DNA of 64,000 nt from a virus: IMG/VR virus record IMGVR_UViG_3300025000_002059, positions 1 to 64,000 of that record; one strand, 5' to 3'. The notes under the pieces were generated by a model. It was not told the DNA's origin, did not search any database, and worked only from the letters and a program-made list of their open reading frames with translations. Shown one piece after another: positions 1,872-51,977 of the stretch (the first letter of the stretch is position 1; each line of letters opens with the position of its first letter). Both the position numbers and the translations under genes were made by a program.

Positions 1872-3203
1872 TTGAGAAAATTAGTAGAGAAACTTAGATT
1901 GTTGAGTAGCAGGCAGAAAGAAGAGATTATAAAGAAATTATCAGACGAAGAAATCCTTGCTCTTTATTATGATTGGGAAGGAGTGTGGTCAAGACCTAGT
2001 CAAGTTGAGCCAGCTGGAGACTGGACATACTGGTTGATTCTTGCTGGTAGGGGATGGGGAAAGACCAAAACAGCAGCAGAATGGATTAGAAAAAGGGTTT
2101 GCACATTAGAGTCAAAACACATCGCACTCGTAGCACCAAGGGCATCGGACATTAGGGACATCATGATAGAGGGACCAAGCGGAATCCTTAATGTATTTCC
2201 ACCAAATCAAAGACCAAACTATGAGCCATCAAAAAGAAAGATCACATTCCATACCGGGGCAGTAGCCATAACATACTCCGGAGATGAGCCGGACCAATTG
2301 CGGGGACCAAATGTGGATACAGCATGGGTCGATGAATTAGCCAGTATCCCAAAACAAGAGCAAGTCCTAGATATGATTGCTTTCTGTTTGAGGATTGGTG
2401 TTAACCCAAGGTGTGTGATAACCACTACGCCAAGACCAACGAGAACGATCAAACGATTAATCCGGGAAGATAATACTTGCATAACGAGAGGGTCCACCTT
2501 TGAAAACAGAGATAACTTATCGACTGTTTTTTTTAGTTCAATCATTGAACGCTATAAAAATACTAGGATTGGAAAGCAAGAATTATATGGAGAAATTCTA
2601 GATGACAATCCAAAGGCTTTATGGAAAGAGAAAATAATCGAGGAATCACGAGTTATAAAGCATCCGGAATTAAGAAGGATTGTAATCGGAGTCGATCCAG
2701 CCGCCACAGCTAATAAAAATTCTGATGAAACAGGAATTATCGCGGTTGGAAAAGGGAATGATGGTCATTTTTATATCTTGGATGATAAGTCATTGAAGGA
2801 CAGTCCAGCCGGATGGGGGAAGGCTGTCGTTTCTGTTTATTATAAATACAAGGCAGATAGAGTCATAGGTGAAGTCAATCAAGGCGGGGATATGGTCGAA
2901 TATGTGCTCAAGACCATCGATAGATATGTGAGTTTCAAAGCAATCCATGCGTCAAGGGGAAAAAAGTTAAGAGCGGAGCCAATAGCAGCACTTTATGAGC
3001 AGCATAAATGCCATCATGTAGGTACATTTCCGGACCTCGAAACTCAAATGACAAACTGGGATCCGGAGAATGATGTAGAGTCACCTGATCGAGTCGATGC
3101 TTTGTGTTGGGCTATCTGGGAACTAATGGACGGTCCCAAGAAACTAAGCAAATACAATCCATCTGGAATCGAGGACTTTAAACGAGAGAGTCCTCATATT
3201 TAA
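1872..3203 (+). CDS. terL: Terminase large subunit
   Basis: The 443-residue packaging motor ATPase/nuclease that pumps genome DNA into the procapsid. Walker A is GRGWGKTK (residues 59-66), Walker B is about residues 148-155 (VDTAWVDE), and the C-terminal RNase-H-like nuclease begins at VIGVDPAAT (acidic residue about 275), with further acidic positions near 330 (GEVNQGGD) and 418 (PDRVDAL). It starts with TTG at 1872 after a GTGGAG ribosome binding site. Length and domain order are normal. No small terminase subunit is recognisable next to it; the SpoIIID-like HTH protein downstream is unlikely to fill that role. Confidence 0.95.
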   Translation: MRKLVEKLRLLSSRQKEEIIKKLSDEEILALYYDWEGVWSRPSQVEPAGDWTYWLILAGRGWGKTKTAAEWIRKRVCTLESKHIALVAPRASDIRDIMIEGPSGILNVFPPNQRPNYEPSKRKITFHTGAVAITYSGDEPDQLRGPNVDTAWVDELASIPKQEQVLDMIAFCLRIGVNPRCVITTTPRPTRTIKRLIREDNTCITRGSTFENRDNLSTVFFSSIIERYKNTRIGKQELYGEILDDNPKALWKEKIIEESRVIKHPELRRIVIGVDPAATANKNSDETGIIAVGKGNDGHFYILDDKSLKDSPAGWGKAVVSVYYKYKADRVIGEVNQGGDMVEYVLKTIDRYVSFKAIHASRGKKLRAEPIAALYEQHKCHHVGTFPDLETQMTNWDPENDVESPDRVDALCWAIWELMDGPKKLSKYNPSGIEDFKRESPHI

Positions 3204-3247: not shown

Positions 3248-3457
3248 ATGGATAAGCTATTAGAACACTGGCAAGCCATGGCGGTTATAGTACTTGAGGA
3301 AAGACAGATAGAAAAAGAGTGTTTGCGAACCAACATTAAGATTGATGTTGTCAAGCGGATAGCCGATTCAACGTCATGGTCCTTAAGGAAATCATTTGAA
3401 TTTTGCCTTCGCGAGAAGGAGGGAAATCAAAGATGGCCCTGCCAAATGATCCTTTAA
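3248..3457 (+). CDS. Small unknown protein before the portal gene
   Basis: A 69-residue protein with an excellent ribosome binding site (AAAGGAGTTGAGGTA) before ATG 3248. Its last 25 bases overlap the start of the portal gene in another frame, and its end carries the portal gene's AAGGAGG ribosome binding site, consistent with translational coupling. The sequence is helical and charged (EERQIEKECLRTN) with no motif I recognise. Its position between terminase and portal suggests a packaging or head-assembly accessory role, which is inference only. Confidence 0.6.
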   Translation: MDKLLEHWQAMAVIVLEERQIEKECLRTNIKIDVVKRIADSTSWSLRKSFEFCLREKEGNQRWPCQMIL

Positions 3458-4758
3458 ACAAAAACGTAGGTAATCAGAAGATCACGCCACAGATCGCCAC
3501 AAGGGAACTTGGCCGGACAGGACTTATTGAATATGATGGCTATGTTTATGAAGAACAATTAAGGCAGTTATCCAGCTTTGACGTAAGGGTCCGAGTTTAC
3601 CGGGAAATGTCTGAAAACGATAGTGTTATCGGAGCAATTTTATTTGTCATTGATATGCTTATTAGACAGGTAACATGGCGGGTTCAGGCCGGGGGTGGAA
3701 CTCCAGAGGATGAAGAAGCAAAGAAATTTCTGGAAAGTTGTTTACAGGATATGTCCTCGACATGGGAAGATACCATATCGGAGATCATGTCCTTTTTAGT
3801 TTATGGGTTTTCATACCATGAAATCGTTTACAAAAGGCGGCTGGGAGAAAATAAAGATCCAACTAAGAATAGTCGTTTTAATGATGGCCGGATAGGATGG
3901 AGAAAAATACCTATCAGAGCACAAGAAACTCTATGGCGCTGGCTATTTGATGATGAAGGCGGCATTCATGGGATGGTTCAGCTTCCACCACCGGATTATA
4001 GAATAAGAACCATACCCATTGAAAAAGCTTTATTATTCAGAACAGCCATCCATAAAAATAACCCAGAAGGACGATCAATCTTAAGAATTGCCTATCGCAC
4101 ATGGTATATAAAAAAGCGAATAGAAACATTTGAAGCCATCGGAATTGAGCGGGAATTGGCCGGATATCCAGTGGTTTATGTTCCGGTTGAATGGACGGAC
4201 ATTAATGCAACACAAGGTGAAAAAGATGCTTATGCCCAAATGAAAAAGCTCGTTACCAACATAAGACGCGATGAACAAGAAGGTGCCGTTCTTCCTGCGA
4301 TTTATGATGAGCAAAATAATCAGTTGGTGCGCTTGGAACTTTTAACGAGCGGCGGTCGAAGGAACTTTGATACAAGCCAAATTATAACAAGACTAGATCA
4401 ACGACTTGCCATGACTGTTATGGCAGATTTCATACTTTTGGGGACAGCAACACCGAATGGTAGCTTTGCACTGAGTGCAGATAAGACGCGACTCTTCAGT
4501 ATGGCATTGGGAACATGGCTGGATTCAATAGCCGCAACCTTCAATCGCTATGCAATCCCAAGACTATTCTCACTCAATAATTTCAAGTTAGAGAAACTTC
4601 CAACATTGGAACATGCCGATATTGATAATCCAGACCTTAAGGATCTTGGAGAGTATCTTGGTAAGCTGGCAGGGGCCGGAGCTCCTTTATTCCCAGATGA
4701 GGACCTAGAAGATTATCTCAGGGAAGTCGCTGGGATGCCACTTACTAAAAAGGAATGA
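3433..4758 (+). CDS. Portal protein (Mu gp29 / DUF935-like)
   Basis: A 441-residue portal protein, the dodecameric channel at the capsid vertex through which DNA is packaged. The C-terminal half shows features typical of the Mu-type portal family: LLTSGGRRNFD, the DQRLAMTVMADFILLG segment and GSFALSADKTRLF. I placed the start at ATG 3433 because an AAGGAGG ribosome binding site lies about 10 bases upstream; an in-frame ATG at 3403 lacks one. The stop overlaps the ATG of the MuF-like gene, as usual for this gene pair. Confidence 0.9.
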   Translation: MALPNDPLNKNVGNQKITPQIATRELGRTGLIEYDGYVYEEQLRQLSSFDVRVRVYREMSENDSVIGAILFVIDMLIRQVTWRVQAGGGTPEDEEAKKFLESCLQDMSSTWEDTISEIMSFLVYGFSYHEIVYKRRLGENKDPTKNSRFNDGRIGWRKIPIRAQETLWRWLFDDEGGIHGMVQLPPPDYRIRTIPIEKALLFRTAIHKNNPEGRSILRIAYRTWYIKKRIETFEAIGIERELAGYPVVYVPVEWTDINATQGEKDAYAQMKKLVTNIRRDEQEGAVLPAIYDEQNNQLVRLELLTSGGRRNFDTSQIITRLDQRLAMTVMADFILLGTATPNGSFALSADKTRLFSMALGTWLDSIAATFNRYAIPRLFSLNNFKLEKLPTLEHADIDNPDLKDLGEYLGKLAGAGAPLFPDEDLEDYLREVAGMPLTKKE

Positions 4759-5681
4759 CGGTCATGTTTATATTTAGAGAGCCGAAAATTATCGAGATTT
4801 ACAAAGAGCGAGCAGAAGATATTGAATGGAGATCATTGCATGGGATAGCGGATCAGGCAAAGCCGGAGATGATCGAAGCATTCCAAAAAGCCGTAGAGCG
4901 GACCAAAGCCGATATGAATCTTACTGAATTAGAGCAAGCAATGCTGATAGCTAATGTGGAAATTGCTCTTAATACTATTCCGTGGGAAACATTTATTTCT
5001 GAACTTGCCAGTATAGGGATAATTTATAAGACTATCTTTGATAGGGCGGGAAATAAATCAATCGATTATCTGCCGGATGATATAGAACTTAAGGCAAGTT
5101 TTAATACTTTAAATCCTAAATCCTTGGATTATATTAAAGATCACACAGGGGAATTAATTGTGGAAATAACTGAGCAAACCCAATTAGCAGTAAGAGCAAT
5201 AATCAATGATGCGTTTATTGAAGGGTTACATCCTTATCAGTCCGCAAGGGAAATCAAAAAAATTGTTGGACTTACTGAGCGCCAAGCAAAAGCGGTCAAC
5301 AATCTCCGAAAGAGTTTGATTATCCAGAAATTATCAGACAAAGTTATCGAACAAAGAACGAAGGCGTATGCTCGCAGATTGCTTATTTACAGATCAAATA
5401 ATATTGCGAGAACCGAGACAATCAATGCAGCAAATAGAGGGCAACAAGCGCTATGGGAACAAACTGAGGAACAAGGATTAATTAATAGGGCAACGGCAAG
5501 ACGCAAATGGATTACAACACCAGATGATCGTTTGTGTCAGTGGTGTAAGTCATTGGATGGAAAAATAGTGGGGTTAGGTGAAGAATTTGGAACACCAATC
5601 ATTTCAGGGATCAATTATACAGCGCTCACACCAACCTTACATCCGAGTTGTAGGTGTGCACTTGGCCTAGTTTTTATCTAA
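4755..5681 (+). CDS. Phage Mu F-like head morphogenesis protein
   Basis: A 308-residue minor head protein of the Mu gpF/SPP1 gp7 family, found immediately after the portal and usually carried inside the capsid on the portal. The C-terminal MuF signature is clear: RTETINAANRGQ, KWITTPDDRLCQWC (a CxxC pair) and the terminal LHPSCRCALG near residue 300. The start ATG at 4755 overlaps the portal stop; a second ATG is present three codons later. No toxin domain follows the MuF domain, so it is the plain structural form. Confidence 0.9.
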   Translation: MTVMFIFREPKIIEIYKERAEDIEWRSLHGIADQAKPEMIEAFQKAVERTKADMNLTELEQAMLIANVEIALNTIPWETFISELASIGIIYKTIFDRAGNKSIDYLPDDIELKASFNTLNPKSLDYIKDHTGELIVEITEQTQLAVRAIINDAFIEGLHPYQSAREIKKIVGLTERQAKAVNNLRKSLIIQKLSDKVIEQRTKAYARRLLIYRSNNIARTETINAANRGQQALWEQTEEQGLINRATARRKWITTPDDRLCQWCKSLDGKIVGLGEEFGTPIISGINYTALTPTLHPSCRCALGLVFI

Positions 5682-5721: not shown

Positions 5722-5997
5722 ATGGGAACACAGGACCATATTCTAAAAAGAACGATTGCTGAAGCTCATTATATCATCGAGAATCGAGCAACCATACGTG
5801 AAACGGCAGCAGCTTTCAATGTTAGTAAGAGCACCGTCCACAGAGACGTTAAAAAATTTCTAGAGGAATTAGATCTTAATTTATATGGTAAAGTTATCCA
5901 TATTATAGACATCAATCTTTCAGAGCGACATATGCGAGGTGGGGAAGCAAACAAGCAGAAGTCGATTGAGCGTCATGCAAAGGCCGTTAATCGATGA
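5722..5997 (+). CDS. spoIIID: SpoIIID-like sporulation transcription regulator
   Basis: A 91-residue DNA-binding protein that matches the SpoIIID family of mother-cell sporulation regulators along its whole length. The helix-turn-helix reads ETAAAFNVSKSTVHRDV (about residues 26-42) and the family tail RHMRGGEANKQKS (about 71-83) corresponds to the RHLRGGEATKLK segment of Bacillus SpoIIID as I recall it. An AGGGGGG ribosome binding site precedes ATG 5722. The stop overlaps the next ATG. It is unexpected inside the head-gene cluster: it could tune late phage genes, or let the phage sense or alter sporulation of its host. Confidence 0.85.
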   Translation: MGTQDHILKRTIAEAHYIIENRATIRETAAAFNVSKSTVHRDVKKFLEELDLNLYGKVIHIIDINLSERHMRGGEANKQKSIERHAKAVNR

Positions 5998-6350
5998 AGT
6001 ATCCGCCAATTATTGCAGTGGATTTCGATGGGACGATTACCAAGGAAAATGACTTTCCAAACTTAGGTGAACTTATGCCGGGGGCTAAAGAAGTCATAAA
6101 CGAATTACATTCATACGGATGCATTATCATTTTATGGACCTGTAGAACTGACAGTTATCTTGAACAAGCCATAAACTATTGCAACCAATGTGGAATTCAT
6201 ATTGACTATGCGAATCAGAACTATCCATCCATTCAGGGATATGCATACCCCAAAATATATGCCGATTATTATATCGATGATCTAAATATCGGGGGATTCC
6301 CCGGATGGCACAATGTCCGAGAAACCATATTCCAACGAGAGGGGTTTTGA
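5994..6350 (+). CDS. HAD-superfamily hydrolase (small phosphatase)
   Basis: A 118-residue haloacid-dehalogenase-like phosphatase of the short, capless type. The nucleophile motif DFDGTIT (residues 9-15), the LWTCRTDS motif II segment (about 46-53) and the YYIDDLN motif IV (about 91-97) are all present, so it should be active. It overlaps the SpoIIID-like stop by four bases (ATGA). The substrate is unknown; related small HAD proteins occur in many phage structural operons. Confidence 0.85.
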   Translation: MKYPPIIAVDFDGTITKENDFPNLGELMPGAKEVINELHSYGCIIILWTCRTDSYLEQAINYCNQCGIHIDYANQNYPSIQGYAYPKIYADYYIDDLNIGGFPGWHNVRETIFQREGF

Positions 6351-6357
6351 TGGGCAA

Positions 6358-6612
6358 ATGAGCGCTCTTAAAGTAAGTGTGGTATGTAGTTCATCAATTA
6401 TTCTTGAGTCCAAGAACCAAGCGATTGTAGACGACCTACTGAGAAAACCCATTATTCACCCGAGCACCATAAATCTAAAAGCGGTTAGATGTCCATACTG
6501 TAATAATTTACTTGGATTTCTGGATGGAACTGCTCAAATAAAATGCTATAAATGTAAATTCATACACCTTGAGGAAACTAGAGTCGCGCCGACGACCAAC
6601 GCATTGATTTAA
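6358..6612 (+). CDS. Com-like zinc-finger protein
   Basis: An 84-residue protein whose core VRCPYCNNLLGF ... IKCYKCKFIH holds two CxxC pairs about 17 residues apart, the pattern of the Mu Com zinc-finger translational regulator and related phage proteins. I chose ATG 6358, 12 bases after a GAGAGGGG sequence; an upstream in-frame ATG at 6313 lies inside the HAD gene. It sits between the head genes and the protease, where Com-like proteins often occur. Binding to nucleic acid is inferred from the fold, not shown. Confidence 0.7.
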   Translation: MSALKVSVVCSSSIILESKNQAIVDDLLRKPIIHPSTINLKAVRCPYCNNLLGFLDGTAQIKCYKCKFIHLEETRVAPTTNALI

Positions 6613-6664
6613 AAAAATGTGTTTGGTTTGTCGGCGTATTTTTGTTTTAAGGAGGAAGAGAGAG

Positions 6665-8125
6665 TTGCACGTTAAAGATTATGTAGATGCGATATTTAAT
6701 TCATTAAGAAATCTTTTATCAGATGATGAGATCAGCAAAATTGACAAAACAGAATTAATAAAAGATGTGTTACTCAACATAGAAAAAAAAGTATTACCAT
6801 TCGGAGATTTGCCACTTGCTGATAGGGATAGAGAGTGGGATGGTTCAGGAGCTGAAAGTAATATTCGCGAATGGGCCGGAGGCAAAGATAATTTGGATTG
6901 GGCAAAATATGGCAAAGGATTCTTGTGGGTTAATGATGAGGACAGGGAAAAGTTTGGTAGTTATAAATTTCCGATTGCCGATGTGATCGATGGAAAATTG
7001 ATTGCTATACCGAGGGGAATATTTGCAGCTGCTGGTGTTTTGAGTGGTGCTAGGTTAGAAGGTGGCGTGGGCCAATTAAATGTGCCAAAGGAAGACATAC
7101 AGGGCTTAAAGGATCATGTCGATAAGTACTATGCCAAGATGAGGAAAGAATGGGATGACGATAAGTTAGTTAGTCCGTTCAAGGAAAAACAAGTATTGGA
7201 AAAATTGATTGATTATAATCCAATGGTTCCTAGTTTTGGGAAGGTTAATTGTGAGATTGCATTTGTGGGGGCATCTCCGGGTAAGATTGAGTCGATAAGA
7301 GGTGAACCTTTCGTTGGACCGTCCGGTGAGACATTTAATGAGTTGTATCTTGGGCCATTAGGATTAAAGCGTGACGATATATTCCTTACTAATGTTGTGC
7401 CAGATTTACTAGTTGACGATATGGGCAATGCGAGAGAACCAAATAATAGGGAAGTTAGTGCTTGGAGCGGGTGGCTTGATGGCGAGATAGAACGATCTAA
7501 TCCTAAAGTTATTGTTGCTCTAGGAAAAATCGCAAAGAAAGCTCTTGGTGAAGACGTTGATTTTGTTTTGCCACATCCGATAGCTATCCGGAAGTATAGT
7601 AATTCAGGAGAAGTTGGAAGGAAGATAAAGCAAATCAAGTTAAAACTTGATGAAATTAACAAAGGTTTGCCTAGTGTTAATGATGTTCATGTACAAAGTA
7701 CAAGTTGGAAAAGACCAAGAAGGACACAGAAATCAGATAATCATTATAAAGATTATGCCGATATATTTAAGGCTGATGATGAAAAGCACCTTATTTATGG
7801 TGTAGTCTTAGAACCCGGTAGTGTCGATGCCCAGAATGATACTATAAGTGCAGAAGAAATTGAACGAGTGGCGCATGTTTATCTCCAAAATTCTAGAATT
7901 GTTGGCAATGGCCATAGATCAAAGGCGAAAGCTGATGTGGTCGAAAGTTTTATAGCGCCGATAAACTATGAATTTGGAAATCAAAAAATTACTAAGGGAA
8001 CATGGGTTATGGTAGTTAAAGTCAATGATGATAAATTATGGGAAGGTGTTAAGGAAAAATTGTATACAGGGTTCTCTATTGGCGGCTTTTCAAAGAGGAT
8101 TCTGGTGAATGAGCCAGCCAATTAA
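6665..8125 (+). CDS. Three-part protein: XkdF-type prohead protease fused to a uracil-DNA glycosylase-like domain
   Basis: A 486-residue protein starting with TTG 6665 after AAGGAGG. Three segments can be seen. Residues about 52-165 are a phage domain with GFLWVND, FPIADVIDGKL and IPRGIFAAAGVLSGAR. Residues about 197-330 resemble family-4-type uracil-DNA glycosylases: GASPGKIES, GEPFVGPSGETF, then LPHPIAIRK as the second active-site motif. Residues about 375-480 match XkdF-like phage serine proteases (VVLEPGSVDAQNDTIS, GNGHRSKAKADVV, TGFSIGGFSKR). The iron-sulphur cysteines of classical family-4 enzymes are not evident. The gene lies between head genes and the scaffold, so the protease is probably the prohead protease; the glycosylase part is unusual there. 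Confidence 0.8.
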   Translation: MHVKDYVDAIFNSLRNLLSDDEISKIDKTELIKDVLLNIEKKVLPFGDLPLADRDREWDGSGAESNIREWAGGKDNLDWAKYGKGFLWVNDEDREKFGSYKFPIADVIDGKLIAIPRGIFAAAGVLSGARLEGGVGQLNVPKEDIQGLKDHVDKYYAKMRKEWDDDKLVSPFKEKQVLEKLIDYNPMVPSFGKVNCEIAFVGASPGKIESIRGEPFVGPSGETFNELYLGPLGLKRDDIFLTNVVPDLLVDDMGNAREPNNREVSAWSGWLDGEIERSNPKVIVALGKIAKKALGEDVDFVLPHPIAIRKYSNSGEVGRKIKQIKLKLDEINKGLPSVNDVHVQSTSWKRPRRTQKSDNHYKDYADIFKADDEKHLIYGVVLEPGSVDAQNDTISAEEIERVAHVYLQNSRIVGNGHRSKAKADVVESFIAPINYEFGNQKITKGTWVMVVKVNDDKLWEGVKEKLYTGFSIGGFSKRILVNEPAN

Positions 8126-8141
8126 GGATGGTGAGCATCAA

Positions 8142-9056
8142 ATGTTAATCAATGAATTAAAAGATCTCAACGTGGAAGAAGTTTCGCTTGTAGGAAAACC
8201 CGCAAATCAAAGAAAATTTCTTTTATTAAAAAATCAAGAAGAAGGGAGCTGTAATGCAGAAATGTTAAATGAAATTTTAAAGTCTCTTAGTGAATTGGAT
8301 ATTGATCTTGAAAATGAGGAATCGCTTGAGAAAACAATGAAGGCTATGAAGTTAGATACTAATGCCGTTAAGGCCGTTAAGGGTGCGCTGAAATTGATGG
8401 AGGCGTATAAAGAGCAGATTCCAAAAGGGATTTTGGATAAACTCATGTCGATGATGATGGAGTATGAAGAGGGAATGGATTATATGGAACATTCCCAAAA
8501 AGAAAAAATGGGGGCAGGAAAGGAGAAAGAGAAAGGTATGGGCATGAATCCAGAAAAGAAAATTAAAAAGGAAGATGGCTCATTGGATTTGAGTGCTATT
8601 CCAGAAGAATCCCGCGAATTGGTCCAGATGTTATGGAAAGAACAGGAGACAGCGGTTAAGAAAGCTCAGGAATTAGAAACGATTCTTAAAGCGGAACGCG
8701 AAATAAGGATTGCTAAAGAGTTCTTAGATCGTGGGATTGCCTTCCCGAATATTGGGACAGCAGAAGCTGTTGGATCGGTTCTCAGGAAAGCCTACGATGT
8801 TTCCGAGGATTATGGAAAGCAACTAGAAGGTATCCTGAAAGATGCAAATACCAAGATCGAAAAGTCCGAGCTTTTTGTTGAAAAAGGTTCAAATGCAAGA
8901 TCATCGGCAGATACAACTTGGGCCAAGATTGAAGAACTGGCCAAGGGAATTGTCATCAAGGGTGAAGGTCAAACTATGGCGCAGGCGATCGATAGAGTTC
9001 TGGCCGAAAATCCAAAACTCTATGATGAGTACACCAAAGAAAGGAGCGGAAAATAA
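8142..9056 (+). CDS. Scaffold-like protein of the head operon
   Basis: A 304-residue protein, highly charged and predicted helical (long lysine/glutamate stretches around residues 100-160), placed between protease and capsid genes as a scaffold normally is. Its first 30 residues (LKDLNVEEVSLVGKPANQRKF) resemble the conserved N-terminus seen in XkdF-type prohead proteins. Start ATG 8142 follows AAGGATGGTGAG; an upstream ATG at 8109 overlaps the protease gene. It should guide capsid assembly and be removed by the upstream protease. Assignment rests on position and composition more than on a catalytic motif. Confidence 0.65.
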   Translation: MLINELKDLNVEEVSLVGKPANQRKFLLLKNQEEGSCNAEMLNEILKSLSELDIDLENEESLEKTMKAMKLDTNAVKAVKGALKLMEAYKEQIPKGILDKLMSMMMEYEEGMDYMEHSQKEKMGAGKEKEKGMGMNPEKKIKKEDGSLDLSAIPEESRELVQMLWKEQETAVKKAQELETILKAEREIRIAKEFLDRGIAFPNIGTAEAVGSVLRKAYDVSEDYGKQLEGILKDANTKIEKSELFVEKGSNARSSADTTWAKIEELAKGIVIKGEGQTMAQAIDRVLAENPKLYDEYTKERSGK

Positions 9057-9531: not shown

Positions 9532-9610
9532 GTTTGCCAATTTTTCAACACAGGGGGTTTTTTATTATCCGATTTTAGTTAAGTAAACATGAACAGAAGG
9601 AGTGATTAAT

Positions 9611-10585
9611 TTGCCGAATCCAACGCTTAGTGATGTGCACGTAGACCGTGCCTTAACCAACATTTCAGTAGCCTATATTCAAAATACAGAGAAAAATTTT
9701 ATTGCGAACAAGGTATTCCCGATCGTGCCAGTCAATAATCGTAGTGACAAATATTTCGTGTTTAGTCAAGCTGATTTTTTCCGTAATGAAGCTAAATTGA
9801 GGGCACCCGGAGCCGAAACTGCTGGTGGCGGCTATCGCTTGAGCACAGACAATTACTCTTGTGATGTACTCGGATTCCATGCGGATCTTGACGACCAAAC
9901 AAGAGCCAATGCTGATGAACCATTGCAACTTGAGAGAAGCCATACGATTTATGTGACACAGCAAATTCTTCTCAAACGTGAAGTTGACTGGGTTACCAAT
10001 TTCTTCACAACTGGCTTATGGACCGGATCCACCACTGGTACGGATTTAGTCGGAACTGTAGATTTTACGCAATGGGACAATATTGTCAGCACTCCAATTG
10101 AGGATATTACCCAACAATCTGACAGCATTTCTCAAAAGACTGGCTATCGGCCAAATACTCTTGTTTTAGGGCCAGAGGTCTATACCACACTTAAGAATCA
10201 TCCAGATATTCTAGACCGGGTTAAGTACAGCCAAAAAGGGATTATAACCGAAGATATTCTAGCTGTTCTTTTTGATGTGGAAAGAGTTCTTGTTCCAAGG
10301 GCAGTAAGGAATACGGCGGCAGAAGCTGCTACTGCAAGTTACAGTTTCCTCTACGGTAAAAATGCATTCCTCGGATATTCAGCACCAGCACCGGGATTAT
10401 ATCAACCATCGGCTGGATATCTATTCACATGGCAGGGTTTATTCGGAGCTGGGGCCGAAGGTGTGCGGATTAAGAATTTCCGGATGGAGCAAAATGCTGC
10501 AAATAGAATTGAGGGTGAATCTGCTTATAACATGAAAGTTGTTGGTGCGGATCTTGGATGTTTCTTCTCGGCAGCTATAGCTTAG
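9611..10585 (+). CDS. Major capsid protein
   Basis: A 324-residue protein that follows scaffold and decoration genes and has the features of Mu/P2-unlike HK97-fold capsid proteins of this portal class: NTEKNFIANKVFPIVPV near the start, FFRNEAKLRAPGAET, and the P-domain segment RPNTLVLGPEVYTTLKNHPDI around residue 180. TTG 9611 is chosen as start because AAGGAG ends eight bases before it; a GTG at 9602 overlaps that ribosome binding site. Expected to form the icosahedral shell. Confidence 0.85.
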   Translation: MPNPTLSDVHVDRALTNISVAYIQNTEKNFIANKVFPIVPVNNRSDKYFVFSQADFFRNEAKLRAPGAETAGGGYRLSTDNYSCDVLGFHADLDDQTRANADEPLQLERSHTIYVTQQILLKREVDWVTNFFTTGLWTGSTTGTDLVGTVDFTQWDNIVSTPIEDITQQSDSISQKTGYRPNTLVLGPEVYTTLKNHPDILDRVKYSQKGIITEDILAVLFDVERVLVPRAVRNTAAEAATASYSFLYGKNAFLGYSAPAPGLYQPSAGYLFTWQGLFGAGAEGVRIKNFRMEQNAANRIEGESAYNMKVVGADLGCFFSAAIA

Positions 10586-26855: not shown

Positions 26856-26903
26856 AACTCCATCCACCTTCCCAAAATATTGAAGAAAGGAGGTAATTCC
26901 TTT

Positions 26904-28514
26904 ATGAGCGATTTTCCTTTCGGAACTTATTTAGGATATAAATTCAATGGAGCTAATAGTTATGCACAGGTACCAGATAATGTAGCAATAGATCCAACTA
27001 CTTACATTACAATTGAATGTCGATTTGCGCTTACCGTTCCTCTTCCATCACAAAGTTTTAATGCTGTTGAACTTGTACAAAAGATGGATGTTACAGTTAC
27101 CACCAAAACTGGGTATGCAGTTTATTTAACAAAAGGCGGATCGTTAGTTTTTCTTCTCAAGGAATCAAATGATAGCACCTATAGGCAATTAGTATTTAGT
27201 GTTGGAACTACTTTCGATGATTTAAGATTACATGTTGTCACTTGTGTATACGATGGTTCCCATATCATAGCATATACCGATGGAGTCTTTGGGAGTCAAG
27301 TCGTTGCAACGGGATCAATCCAACAGGATACTGGTCAAAGTCTTAATATTGGTGGATTTAGAATAGGAACCAGTCCACCAAATACGAATTTCTTTAACGG
27401 TTTTATTGATGAAGTAAGAATATGGGATACGGCTAGGACACCAACGGAAATTAGTGATAATGCTTGGAATCAACTTACTGGTGCTGAATCTGGACTAGTT
27501 GGGTATTGGAAATTTAATGAAAATAGCGGTACAGTGGCAACGGATTCATCGCCATCGGGAAATGATGGAACACTTTCCAACACTAAGCGATTAGCCTTAA
27601 ATTATACTCCAGCAGTTGATGCTAATTTTTCAGCACAAAATCCTACATTAATTTTTGATCAGATCGTTTCACCAACTGCATCTGTATCAACTTTTATAGC
27701 TTCCAATCCTACATTAATTTTTGATCAGACTGTTTCGCCAACTGCATCAGTCGCAACTTTTTCTGCTCAAGATCCAATAATTAAAGAAACGATTCAGGCA
27801 AGTCCTGCATCGGCAACATTCTCCATCCCAAACGCAACGATAATTGCCGGAGCTGTTACGATTCAGGCAAGTCCTGCATCGGCAACATTCTCCATCCCAA
27901 ACGCAACGATAATTGCCGGAGCTGTTACGATTCAGGCAAATCCTGCCTTTGCAGCTTTTACGGCAAATTCAATTAAGGTAAATCTTGTTATCGAACCTAG
28001 CCCTTCAATAATAAATTTCGTCGTTGGAACTCCAACGATTAGATTAACTCAGCAAGCAATGCCAAGTGTCATAACTTTAGCGTTACCACCACCGACTATC
28101 ACAGTGGGAGCAGTAACGGTTCAAGCTACCCCAGCAGTAGCTACTTTTTCAGCCAATGCTATAACAACAACACTCACCATAAGCACTACCCCAGCAGTAG
28201 CTACTTTTTCAGCTAATTCACCAACTATCACAGTGGGAGTAGTAACGGTTCAAGCTACCCCAGCAGTAGCTACTTTTTCAGCTAATTCACCAACTATCAC
28301 AGTGGGAGCAGTAACGGTTCAAGCTACCCCAGCAGTAGCGCTATTTACATTGCCAACTCCAACTATATTAATGGATCAAATAGTATTTCCTGATCCAGCG
28401 ATAGCAACATTTAGTATTCCAACTCCCACAGTATTTGTTGTTAGAATTACGATCAGTTTCGGAGTTAAGATATTTAATGAGATCAATTACCATGTCATTA
28501 TCGAAAATAGTTGA
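26904..28514 (+). CDS. LamG-domain tail fibre with tandem repeats
   Basis: A 536-residue protein. Residues about 10-225 form a concanavalin/LamG-type lectin domain (YKFNGANSYAQVPDN; ITIECRFAL; IDEVRIWDTARTP; GLVGYWKFNENSG). The rest is a series of beta repeats about 23 residues long, of the form VTVQATPAVATFSANSPTI, encoded by 69-base repeats that are identical or nearly so at 27789, 27858 and again from 28119 on. AAAGGAGGT lies 11 bases before ATG 26904. It is probably an adhesin or fibre whose stalk length can change by repeat recombination. Confidence 0.75.
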   Translation: MSDFPFGTYLGYKFNGANSYAQVPDNVAIDPTTYITIECRFALTVPLPSQSFNAVELVQKMDVTVTTKTGYAVYLTKGGSLVFLLKESNDSTYRQLVFSVGTTFDDLRLHVVTCVYDGSHIIAYTDGVFGSQVVATGSIQQDTGQSLNIGGFRIGTSPPNTNFFNGFIDEVRIWDTARTPTEISDNAWNQLTGAESGLVGYWKFNENSGTVATDSSPSGNDGTLSNTKRLALNYTPAVDANFSAQNPTLIFDQIVSPTASVSTFIASNPTLIFDQTVSPTASVATFSAQDPIIKETIQASPASATFSIPNATIIAGAVTIQASPASATFSIPNATIIAGAVTIQANPAFAAFTANSIKVNLVIEPSPSIINFVVGTPTIRLTQQAMPSVITLALPPPTITVGAVTVQATPAVATFSANAITTTLTISTTPAVATFSANSPTITVGVVTVQATPAVATFSANSPTITVGAVTVQATPAVALFTLPTPTILMDQIVFPDPAIATFSIPTPTVFVVRITISFGVKIFNEINYHVIIENS

Positions 28515-51227: not shown

Positions 51228-51977
51228 TCACCGAGTCAGAACGTCCCTATATTTACCGCTGATATTATCTTCCAGTCCACATTTATTGCAATCTCCAATT
51301 TTCAGGGATTTTATATTATCAAATAATATTTTAGGATTATCTCTCACTGTCCCGATCTGGAAGCATTCGTCAGTTTCACCAATATGAACCCCACCGTTAA
51401 TATCTATGGAAGGTATACAAAATTTTTGAAGTTTAAATTCATAAAATTCCATAAGATCTTGAAAACTTGTAATGTGTCCAGATCGTATGATACTCCGCGC
51501 ATTAAAGCATTTTGGGTAAGTAATTTTAATTTCCATATCATCCATACACAGGTTATTTGTTACTGCTCTGCCGATTGGAAATAAATGATTTATTTCAGTT
51601 ATATAGCATAGATTCTCATGTTCGATCACTGGGACACCTTGAGGATAGAACCTTTTATCATTCGTAATCTGGATCATGATGCCCAAGCTGAGTATTTCTT
51701 TTGCATACTGTTTATTGTGTAGAAACATGCCATTACTTGCTATTATCAATAATTCTGGACGTTCCATTTTTCTTTTTAACAATTCAACTATCTCGATGAA
51801 CTGCGGGTGCTCGCTTGGTTCGCCACCAGTCAGAAGAATCATTTTTGCACCTGTTTTTGGAATAAACTTAAGAGAATCCCGGAAATTATCAAAATCCATA
51901 TGTTTCCCGTTCGGGGAAGCATTATCAAAACAATGCGTACAGTTCATATTGCATTTATTGGTTATTCGTAGAATCAA
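51228..51977 (-). CDS. Radical SAM protein
   Basis: A 249-residue radical SAM enzyme: the [4Fe-4S] motif CNMNCTHC (C9, C13, C16), the ILLTGGEPSEHPQF glycine motif (about 47-60) and IIASNGMFL. A shortened C-terminal auxiliary-cluster region is hinted at by ECFQIG and CNKCGL. It uses TTG 51977 after AAAGGAGG. Such enzymes may modify peptides, nucleic acids or sugars. It is alone on the left strand; the hairpin 52005-52033 upstream could be an attenuator. Confidence 0.85.
   Translation of the reverse strand: MILRITNKCNMNCTHCFDNASPNGKHMDFDNFRDSLKFIPKTGAKMILLTGGEPSEHPQFIEIVELLKRKMERPELLIIASNGMFLHNKQYAKEILSLGIMIQITNDKRFYPQGVPVIEHENLCYITEINHLFPIGRAVTNNLCMDDMEIKITYPKCFNARSIIRSGHITSFQDLMEFYEFKLQKFCIPSIDINGGVHIGETDECFQIGTVRDNPKILFDNIKSLKIGDCNKCGLEDNISGKYRDVLTR

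Follow-up and report, generated by a model that had tools for sequence, protein, structure and literature searches.

A phage head maturation protease with a non-canonical uracil-DNA glycosylase-like domain, and its multidomain XkdF relatives

Introduction

Why should a protease that matures a phage head carry a domain of the kind found in DNA repair? The question is raised by a locus of IMG/VR virus record IMGVR_UViG_3300025000_002059, of which we analyzed the first 64,000 nucleotides (the window), a part of the 87,959-base viral record. An earlier note on this DNA had placed a uracil-DNA glycosylase (UDG)-like core within a 486-residue head protease and had offered DNA scanning during packaging, defence against uracil-DNA phage or host attack, or a redundant scaffold role as possible functions. 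The domain, its position and the missing iron-sulphur (Fe-S) cysteines stood in our analysis; none of the proposed roles was shown.

Results

Locus and domain layout

The protease gene (6665..8125, + strand) encodes 486 amino acids from a TTG start, with a Shine-Dalgarno sequence, AGGAGG (6650..6655, +), read directly 9 nt upstream of the TTG. On the same strand lie genes for the terminase large subunit (TerL, 1872..3203), a portal protein of the Mu type (3403..4758), a MuF-like head morphogenesis protein in a separate ORF (4755..5681), a scaffold-like ORF (8109..9056) that shares 17 nt with the protease gene, and a gpE-like major capsid protein (MCP; phrog_1005, 9602..10585). The order TerL-portal-MuF-...-protease-scaffold-...-MCP confirms the head operon in which the earlier note had set the chain. 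The scaffold-like ORF opens with a VSLV.KPAN..KFLLLK segment, and the same segment precedes the protease in XkdF of the PBSX type. No toxin or other added domain was found in the MuF ORF, which is thus not a MuF-effector fusion of the kind seen in MuF polymorphic toxins.

Several other genes were noticed in the window. A small ORF directly before the protease gene (6313-6612) has a CPYC...CYKC zinc-ribbon-like segment and looks Com-like by eye, with no Pfam match, and a HAD-like hydrolase (weak Pfam match, E=6e-4) lies within the head operon at 5994-6350. Adjoining the terminase gene are phage-borne sugar-related genes for a cytidylyltransferase (83-784) and a PIG-L deacetylase (1001-1729). 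Positions 26880-28514 encode a protein of structural appearance that contains degenerate 'VQATPAVATFSANSPTITVGAV'-type repeats, and a radical SAM protein (E=7e-13) is encoded on the - strand at 51228-51977. Neither a second UDG nor an ATP-dependent DNA ligase was found elsewhere on the whole 88-kb contig, and PADLOC gave no match to the window protease.

The protease chain begins with a helical segment (residues 1-43; 6665..6793, +) whose likeness to its relatives was recognized by eye. In the relatives this segment reads 'EYLE..L..AK.FLP.W.....I..A.P.SGGKA'; 16 ORFs, most of them relatives, were picked out by the NT profile, and the copy in the window has diverged too far to be found by it. 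A head-protein-associated domain follows (KFGSY, after 'KFGSYKFP'; residues 48-163; 6806..7153, +), which by tblastn recurs in head proteins of MFTV1 and Thermus phage Riverbug and in Streptomyces MuF-protease fusions, and is also present in one relative (L114), so the N-terminal phage domain proposed earlier is real. The UDG-superfamily domain (residues 187-333; 7223..7663, +), identified by Pfam, AF2 and Foldseek, is joined by a linker containing the peptide PSVNDVHVQ (residues 336-344; 7670..7696, +) to the XkdF/Peptidase_S78_2 protease domain (7760..8101, +), which Pfam matched over residues 366-479 (E=3.8e-30; 104.9 bits against a cut-off of 24). His417 and Ser471 are invariant in both protease alignments (A5 and A7) and are, from what is known of the family, the probable catalytic residues. 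With the Pfam UDG match at residues 189-312, the glycosylase-like core does sit between the N-terminal domain and the protease; the three motifs by which it had been recognized, GASPGKIES, GEPFVGPSG and LPHPIAIRK, fall at residues 202-210, 213-221 and 302-310. Homologues with the same domain order, one at 97% and several at 64-66% identity, were recovered from several other contigs, showing that the fusion is not an accident of assembly. An AF2 model of the full 486-residue protein, made with 7 sequences, had a mean pLDDT of 42 and was discarded.

Fold and family of the UDG-like domain

Pfam UDG (PF03167) matched the domain with E=1.7e-20 (74 bits against a cut-off of 24.3), and a single-sequence search of the PDB returned the family-4 UDG 4zbx at E=3.9e-16. 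An AF2 model of residues 171-353, built from 37 aligned sequences, reached a pLDDT of 87 and a pTM of 0.79, and Foldseek placed UdgX 6ajo as its best match (E=1.8e-11, TM 0.68), with family-4 UDGs among the first matches. The structural match to the UDG fold that the earlier note had asked for was therefore found. Since the AF2 alignment included 8 ordinary UDGs, it is the Pfam and PDB sequence matches that serve as independent evidence of the fold.

The domain nevertheless fell below the NCBIfam cut-offs for family 4 (TIGR00758, 69.9 bits against 125.3) and for UdgX (TIGR03914, 70.4 against 189.95 bits). UdgX has an extended motif-3 loop with a cross-linking His (H109), and no His was found at residues 244-262 of the window protein. 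In the comparison with family 5 UDGb, which has a motif 1 without an acid, N120 and an Fe-S cluster, the Fe-S cysteines were absent and 2d3y, which we take to be a family 5 structure, matched weakly (E=0.016). A branch with 100/100 support separates ten ordinary UDGs from the UDG-like domains of head proteases, which on this tree are a distinct clade of the superfamily. The domain is under strong purifying selection (dN/dS about 0.03-0.06): the values, 0.027 for the window against L003 and 0.065 for L022 against L023, are at least as low as those of the protease and indicate that it is not debris.

Active-site residues

The key residues of Thermus (Tth) UDGa are E41, G42, E47, F54, N80, N89 and H155, of which H155 carries most of the catalysis; E41A substantially reduced activity, and E41Q lowered k2/Km by about three orders of magnitude (PMC5387724). 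The window protein has A203, S204, E209, F216, N243, an Ala and H304, respectively, at these sites, and Pro in place of K83. Motif 1 (GASPGKIE, residues 202-209; 7268..7291, +) has thus kept the Glu of the E47 site and lost that of the E41 site, motif 3 (TNVVP, residues 242-246; 7388..7402, +) has kept the Asn and lost Lys83 and the Fe-S Cys, and motif 2 (LPHP, residues 302-305; 7568..7579, +) has kept the His. A further motif, G315-E316-x-x-R319-K320 (7607..7624, +), is specific to the clade and absent from true UDGs.

The same pattern was seen among 34 head-protease relatives. The motif-1 Glu (GE[AG]PG) was absent in 34/34, while the motif-2 His was kept in 33; the E47 site was Glu or Asp in all 34, the N80 site Asn in 24, the N89 site Ala or Val, and the F54 site was split evenly between Phe and Leu (17 each), some lineages being without the pocket Phe and Asn as well. 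The Fe-S cysteine sites were lost, with a Trp (W267) in 30, and R319 (33/34) and K320 (34/34) are conserved here and not in true UDGs. The single cysteine of the window protein, C196, leaves no room for a four-Cys Fe-S cluster like that of family 4, bearing out what the earlier note had said of it. The constant absence of the motif-1 Glu, the lost Fe-S sites and the peculiar R319/K320 pair mark the domain, by its residues, as a non-canonical member of the superfamily that is neither family 4 nor UdgX.

Multidomain relatives of the protease

The survey of XkdF-like proteins proposed in the earlier note was made in IMG/VR, with the UDG domain as the first query and the XkdF domain as the second. 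The UDG-like domain was present in 38 of 72 distinct ORFs, a frequency that is biased upward because the survey comprised the 80 best of 172 XkdF matches, those nearest to the window family. Local profiles gave a constant module order in the 72 ORFs, NT-NTase-(D12)-(MT)-LIG-OB-UDG-PE-XkdF, with many losses, and by this layout the window protein is a short, reduced member of a larger family of multidomain proteases. A 1,051-aa relative (L024) joins a DNA ligase, a UDG-like domain, a phosphoesterase-like (PE) module and XkdF in the same kind of head operon; two others (L034 and L035) add methyltransferases, with a D12 N6-adenine (N6A) enzyme in L034. Two very long forms, L126 (1603-6354; 1,584 aa) and L057 (835-6372; 1,846 aa), have a Dam-like N6A methyltransferase and a DNA ligase, and L057 has UDG-like and PE-like modules in addition. 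In L080 (2-2107; IMGVR_UViG_3300035130_000086), the anti-CBASS protein Acb1 (Pfam E=2.8e-33, both HxT motifs present) is fused to a ligase-type OB domain, a LigD-phosphoesterase-like module and XkdF; a search for a relative of this fusion recovered the same contig alone. The other multidomain proteases named here, and with them L119, L104 and L054, likewise lie in head operons.

Other relatives carry different modules. A histidine phosphatase and a NUDIX domain are fused to the head protease in L123 (4720-6693), and L114 (3751-5880) combines KFGSY, rubrerythrin/rubredoxin-like domains and a UDG-like domain. Pfam searches of representatives gave a metallo-beta-lactamase-like domain in L054 and ChaB in L072 and L108, and some XkdF relatives have small non-enzymatic add-ons only (ChaB, DUF3721). 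Three proteins (L095, L097 and L102) contain degenerate ligase-like modules without the motif-I lysine signature, possibly pseudo-ligases that parallel the altered UDG-like domain.

The active-site motifs of the cargo enzymes read as mostly intact. The ligase signature K.[DN]G.R was kept in 13/13 non-degenerate modules in which motif I was covered, and D12 DPP[YW] in 3/3. Of 22 PE modules, 18 had the motif H..H[GA]D[LM]R, and several of the others were truncated. The PE-like module weakly matched LigD phosphoesterase structures of archaea, 5DMP (named in PMC8656161) and 3p43, and keeps the H, H, D and R residues. LigD_N matched it below the cut-off (E=0.003-0.007), and we accept its identity on the conserved Q.H/H.D.R residues, as a likely assignment. 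The NTase-like module had no PDB match, and its label is taken from motifs.

On the XkdF tree, which comes from a short alignment and is weakly resolved, the UDG-like domain was gained or lost several times, with at least four changes forced. In L083, L087 and L091 it lies in two pieces about 110 aa apart and seems to have received another domain as an insertion. In L050 (3780-7588) it is split across two overlapping frames, through sequencing error, a frameshift or a real split. Intein-like insertions were seen by eye in translations of the ligase module of L052 (3786-6482), the portal of L041 (2555-4945) and the MuF protein of L051 (3-1685).

Nearly all of these loci are metagenomic. A search of genome contigs with the whole window protein gave no match; when the UDG-domain alignment was used instead, the long form came up on a single Bacillota MAG contig, as a 1,241-aa protein in a head operon (L041). 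Among the 60 best of 250 matching INPHARED records there was no UDG-XkdF fusion, the UDG, XkdF and KFGSY domains occurring in different proteins, and the 40 best of 259 records matching the long form held no ligase-XkdF fusion. We set aside the 'DNA methyltransferase' labels on XkdF proteins of Pseudomonas, Rhizobium and Lactococcus, which look like annotation spread, as the Lactococcus, Rhizobium and psageK4e proteins inspected have no methyltransferase domain before the protease. We found no report of such a fusion in the open-access literature, to which our coverage was confined, and this absence is weak evidence.

A peptide shared with the major capsid protein

The MCPs of these phages start with 'NPTxSDVHVN..LTNISIAY', and the linker between the UDG-like domain and the protease resembles this N-terminus. 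The window linker reads LPSVNDVHVQST and the window MCP reads NPTLSDVHVDRALTN, with its N-terminal peptide PTLSDVHVD at 9620..9646 (+). We searched with a strict pattern, P-x(1-4)-[DE]-[VL]-H-[VI]-[DNPQ], which excludes the beta-strand 'GVHIS' inside XkdF. It was present in 30 MCPs (29 of the 35 classed, plus that of L057). Eleven head-protease ORFs, from about five separate lineages (the window clade with L094, L104, L108, L116 and L123), also had it, and among about 1,070 ORFs it occurred in none other than MCPs and head proteases. The peptide might be a docking peptide on the inner face of the capsid or a processing signal, and either would fit equally.

Discussion

We propose that the protease is a carrier that would load DNA-active and anti-defence cargo into the prohead, and that its UDG-like domain is more likely a non-canonical binder of DNA or bases than an efficient glycosylase; we give this reading about an even chance of being right. 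The protease part and the assembly elements, that is, the N-terminal helical segment and the capsid-like DVHV peptide, would carry the entire chain to the core of the prohead, where the protease would process the scaffold and probably itself too. The cargo, here KFGSY and the UDG-like domain and in relatives also NTase-like, methyltransferase, DNA ligase, LigD-phosphoesterase-like or Acb1 modules, would then be too large to leave and would remain with the DNA, to act inside the head or, as T4 internal proteins do, after ejection into the next cell. For the UDG-like domain we think it most likely that it binds DNA with uracil, abasic sites or other damaged or modified bases, or cleaves such DNA slowly; efficient excision of uracil seems less likely, and the domain may instead be purely structural.

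That the UDG-like domain is one module among ligase, methyltransferase, LigD-phosphoesterase-like and Acb1 fusions points to cargo loading as the theme, and no other single observation hints as strongly as the Acb1 fusion that at least some cargo acts in the infected cell. That heads can carry enzymes is an established idea, with the T4 internal proteins and Alt, which have capsid-targeting sequences (PMC9026906), and the MuF-fused effectors, thought to be loaded in a like manner (PMC5512222, PMC5576092), as precedents. Counting against the carrier reading are the loss of the motif-1 Glu in 34/34 relatives and of the pocket Phe and Asn in some lineages, which also fits a purely structural role, the relatives with small non-enzymatic add-ons or degenerate ligase-like modules (L095, L097 and L102), and the PBSX-type XkdF proteins inspected in Bacillota genomes, which are without such cargo. 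In a wider form that we put forward tentatively, as somewhat more apt to fail than to hold, XkdF proteases would be a general loading vehicle for interchangeable repair, modification and anti-defence enzymes, docked partly by the MCP-mimicking peptide and delivered with the genome as a repair and counter-defence kit.

The losses of the motif-1 Glu and of the Fe-S cluster would also suit an assembly module. Here the UDG-like fold would have been co-opted as a folded domain that binds DNA or scaffold, so placing the protease within the prohead core or sensing the DNA as it comes in, and would be neither enzymatic nor delivered. This reading gains from the new invariant R319-K320 and W267 that true UDGs do not have, from the many ORFs in which the UDG-like domain is the sole recognized large module, directly before XkdF, and from a dN/dS that does not exceed that of the protease. 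We consider it rather unlikely, however, since a pure spacer would not need the nearly invariant equivalents of His155 and Glu47, the modules next to it in longer relatives are enzymes whose active sites are intact, and the repeated gain and loss of the UDG-like domain on the XkdF tree suggests that assembly does not depend on it. The redundant scaffold role of the earlier note is at odds with selection as strong as that measured here.

An active glycosylase that removes uracil from packaged or competing DNA, for quality control or in attack on uracil-containing phage or host DNA, would agree with the match of H304, N243, F216 and E209 to the Tth residues (PMC5387724) and with UdgX and family 4 as the closest structural neighbors. 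We regard it as quite improbable: E41 has become Ala, the N89 site Ala or Val and K83 Pro, the Tth E41A and E41Q enzymes are impaired (PMC5387724), there is no Fe-S cluster, and neither NCBIfam cut-off was reached. The scanning and attack functions suggested earlier both presume such activity and are made doubtful by the altered motif 1. A base pocket kept without its catalytic Glu could also belong to a virion-loaded binder that covers uracil, abasic sites or modified bases in the phage genome as soon as it has entered, protecting them from the repair or restriction systems of the host without repairing them. The Acb1 of a sibling protease and the theme of polyvalent proteins (PMC5512222) would accord with this, yet the window genome gives no sign of modified bases, no known counter-defence partner was identified and the reading is wholly inferential, so we think it very unlikely. 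Chance similarity or a chimeric assembly has next to no probability; nearly all relatives are from metagenomic contigs, but the Pfam and PDB matches, the many independent contigs together with a MAG, and dN/dS far below 1 refute an artefact.

If the carrier reading is correct, many 'head maturation protease' annotations would hide enzymes that possibly act at infection, among them ligase, methyltransferases, LigD-like phosphoesterase, Acb1 and the UDG-fold clade, and a maturation protease would be a modular carrier beside the internal proteins and the MuF or portal fusions described so far. The DVHV peptide offers a concrete, testable element for how proteins enter heads, and the UDG-like clade a natural system in which to ask what the UDG fold does once its canonical motif-1 residue is gone.

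Compared with known systems, the window protein shares its protease domain, the invariant His and Ser and its place in the head operon with other XkdF/Peptidase_S78_2 proteases (PBSX, the Lactococcus ul36 group, psiM2). In the PBSX-type XkdF proteins inspected, no large enzymatic module precedes the protease and the scaffold is part of its chain, whereas in the window the scaffold has an ORF of its own and the KFGSY and UDG-like domains occupy the N-terminus of the protease chain. With family 4 (UDGa) and UdgX the window domain has in common the fold, the motif-2 His and the pocket Asn, Phe and Glu; it differs in the missing Fe-S cysteines, motif-1 Glu and KRRIH-type loop, in the clade-specific W267 and R319-K320, in its fusion to a head protease and in its separate clade (100/100). 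A UDG-superfamily domain is likewise attached to another phage protein in the UDG-fused DNA polymerases of the SPO1/phiLo type (e.g. PDB 9qhs), where the partner is a replicative polymerase and not a late-operon head protease. The long relatives resemble bacterial LigD of NHEJ in having an ATP-dependent ligase and a PE-like module with the Q.H/H.D.R residues, and differ from it in module order, in the weak similarity of the PE sequence (LigD_N E=0.003-0.007) and in that no primase-polymerase module was found in them.

Phage polyvalent proteins and MuF-fused effectors also have several enzyme domains on a late, virion-associated chain (PMC5512222, PMC5576092). Late-gene chains that combine a number of effector or DNA-enzyme domains are likewise found in L034, L035, L041/L053, L057, L126 and others, with the window protein as a reduced form, but the carrier here is the XkdF maturation protease, which the main text of those two papers does not mention, rather than MuF or portal, and the cargo is mainly of DNA repair and modification. 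The T4 internal proteins and Alt are enzymes put in the prohead core and ejected with the DNA, as is proposed here for the cargo of the window family; in T4 the cargo consists of separate proteins with a short targeting peptide, whereas here it would be fused to the protease itself.
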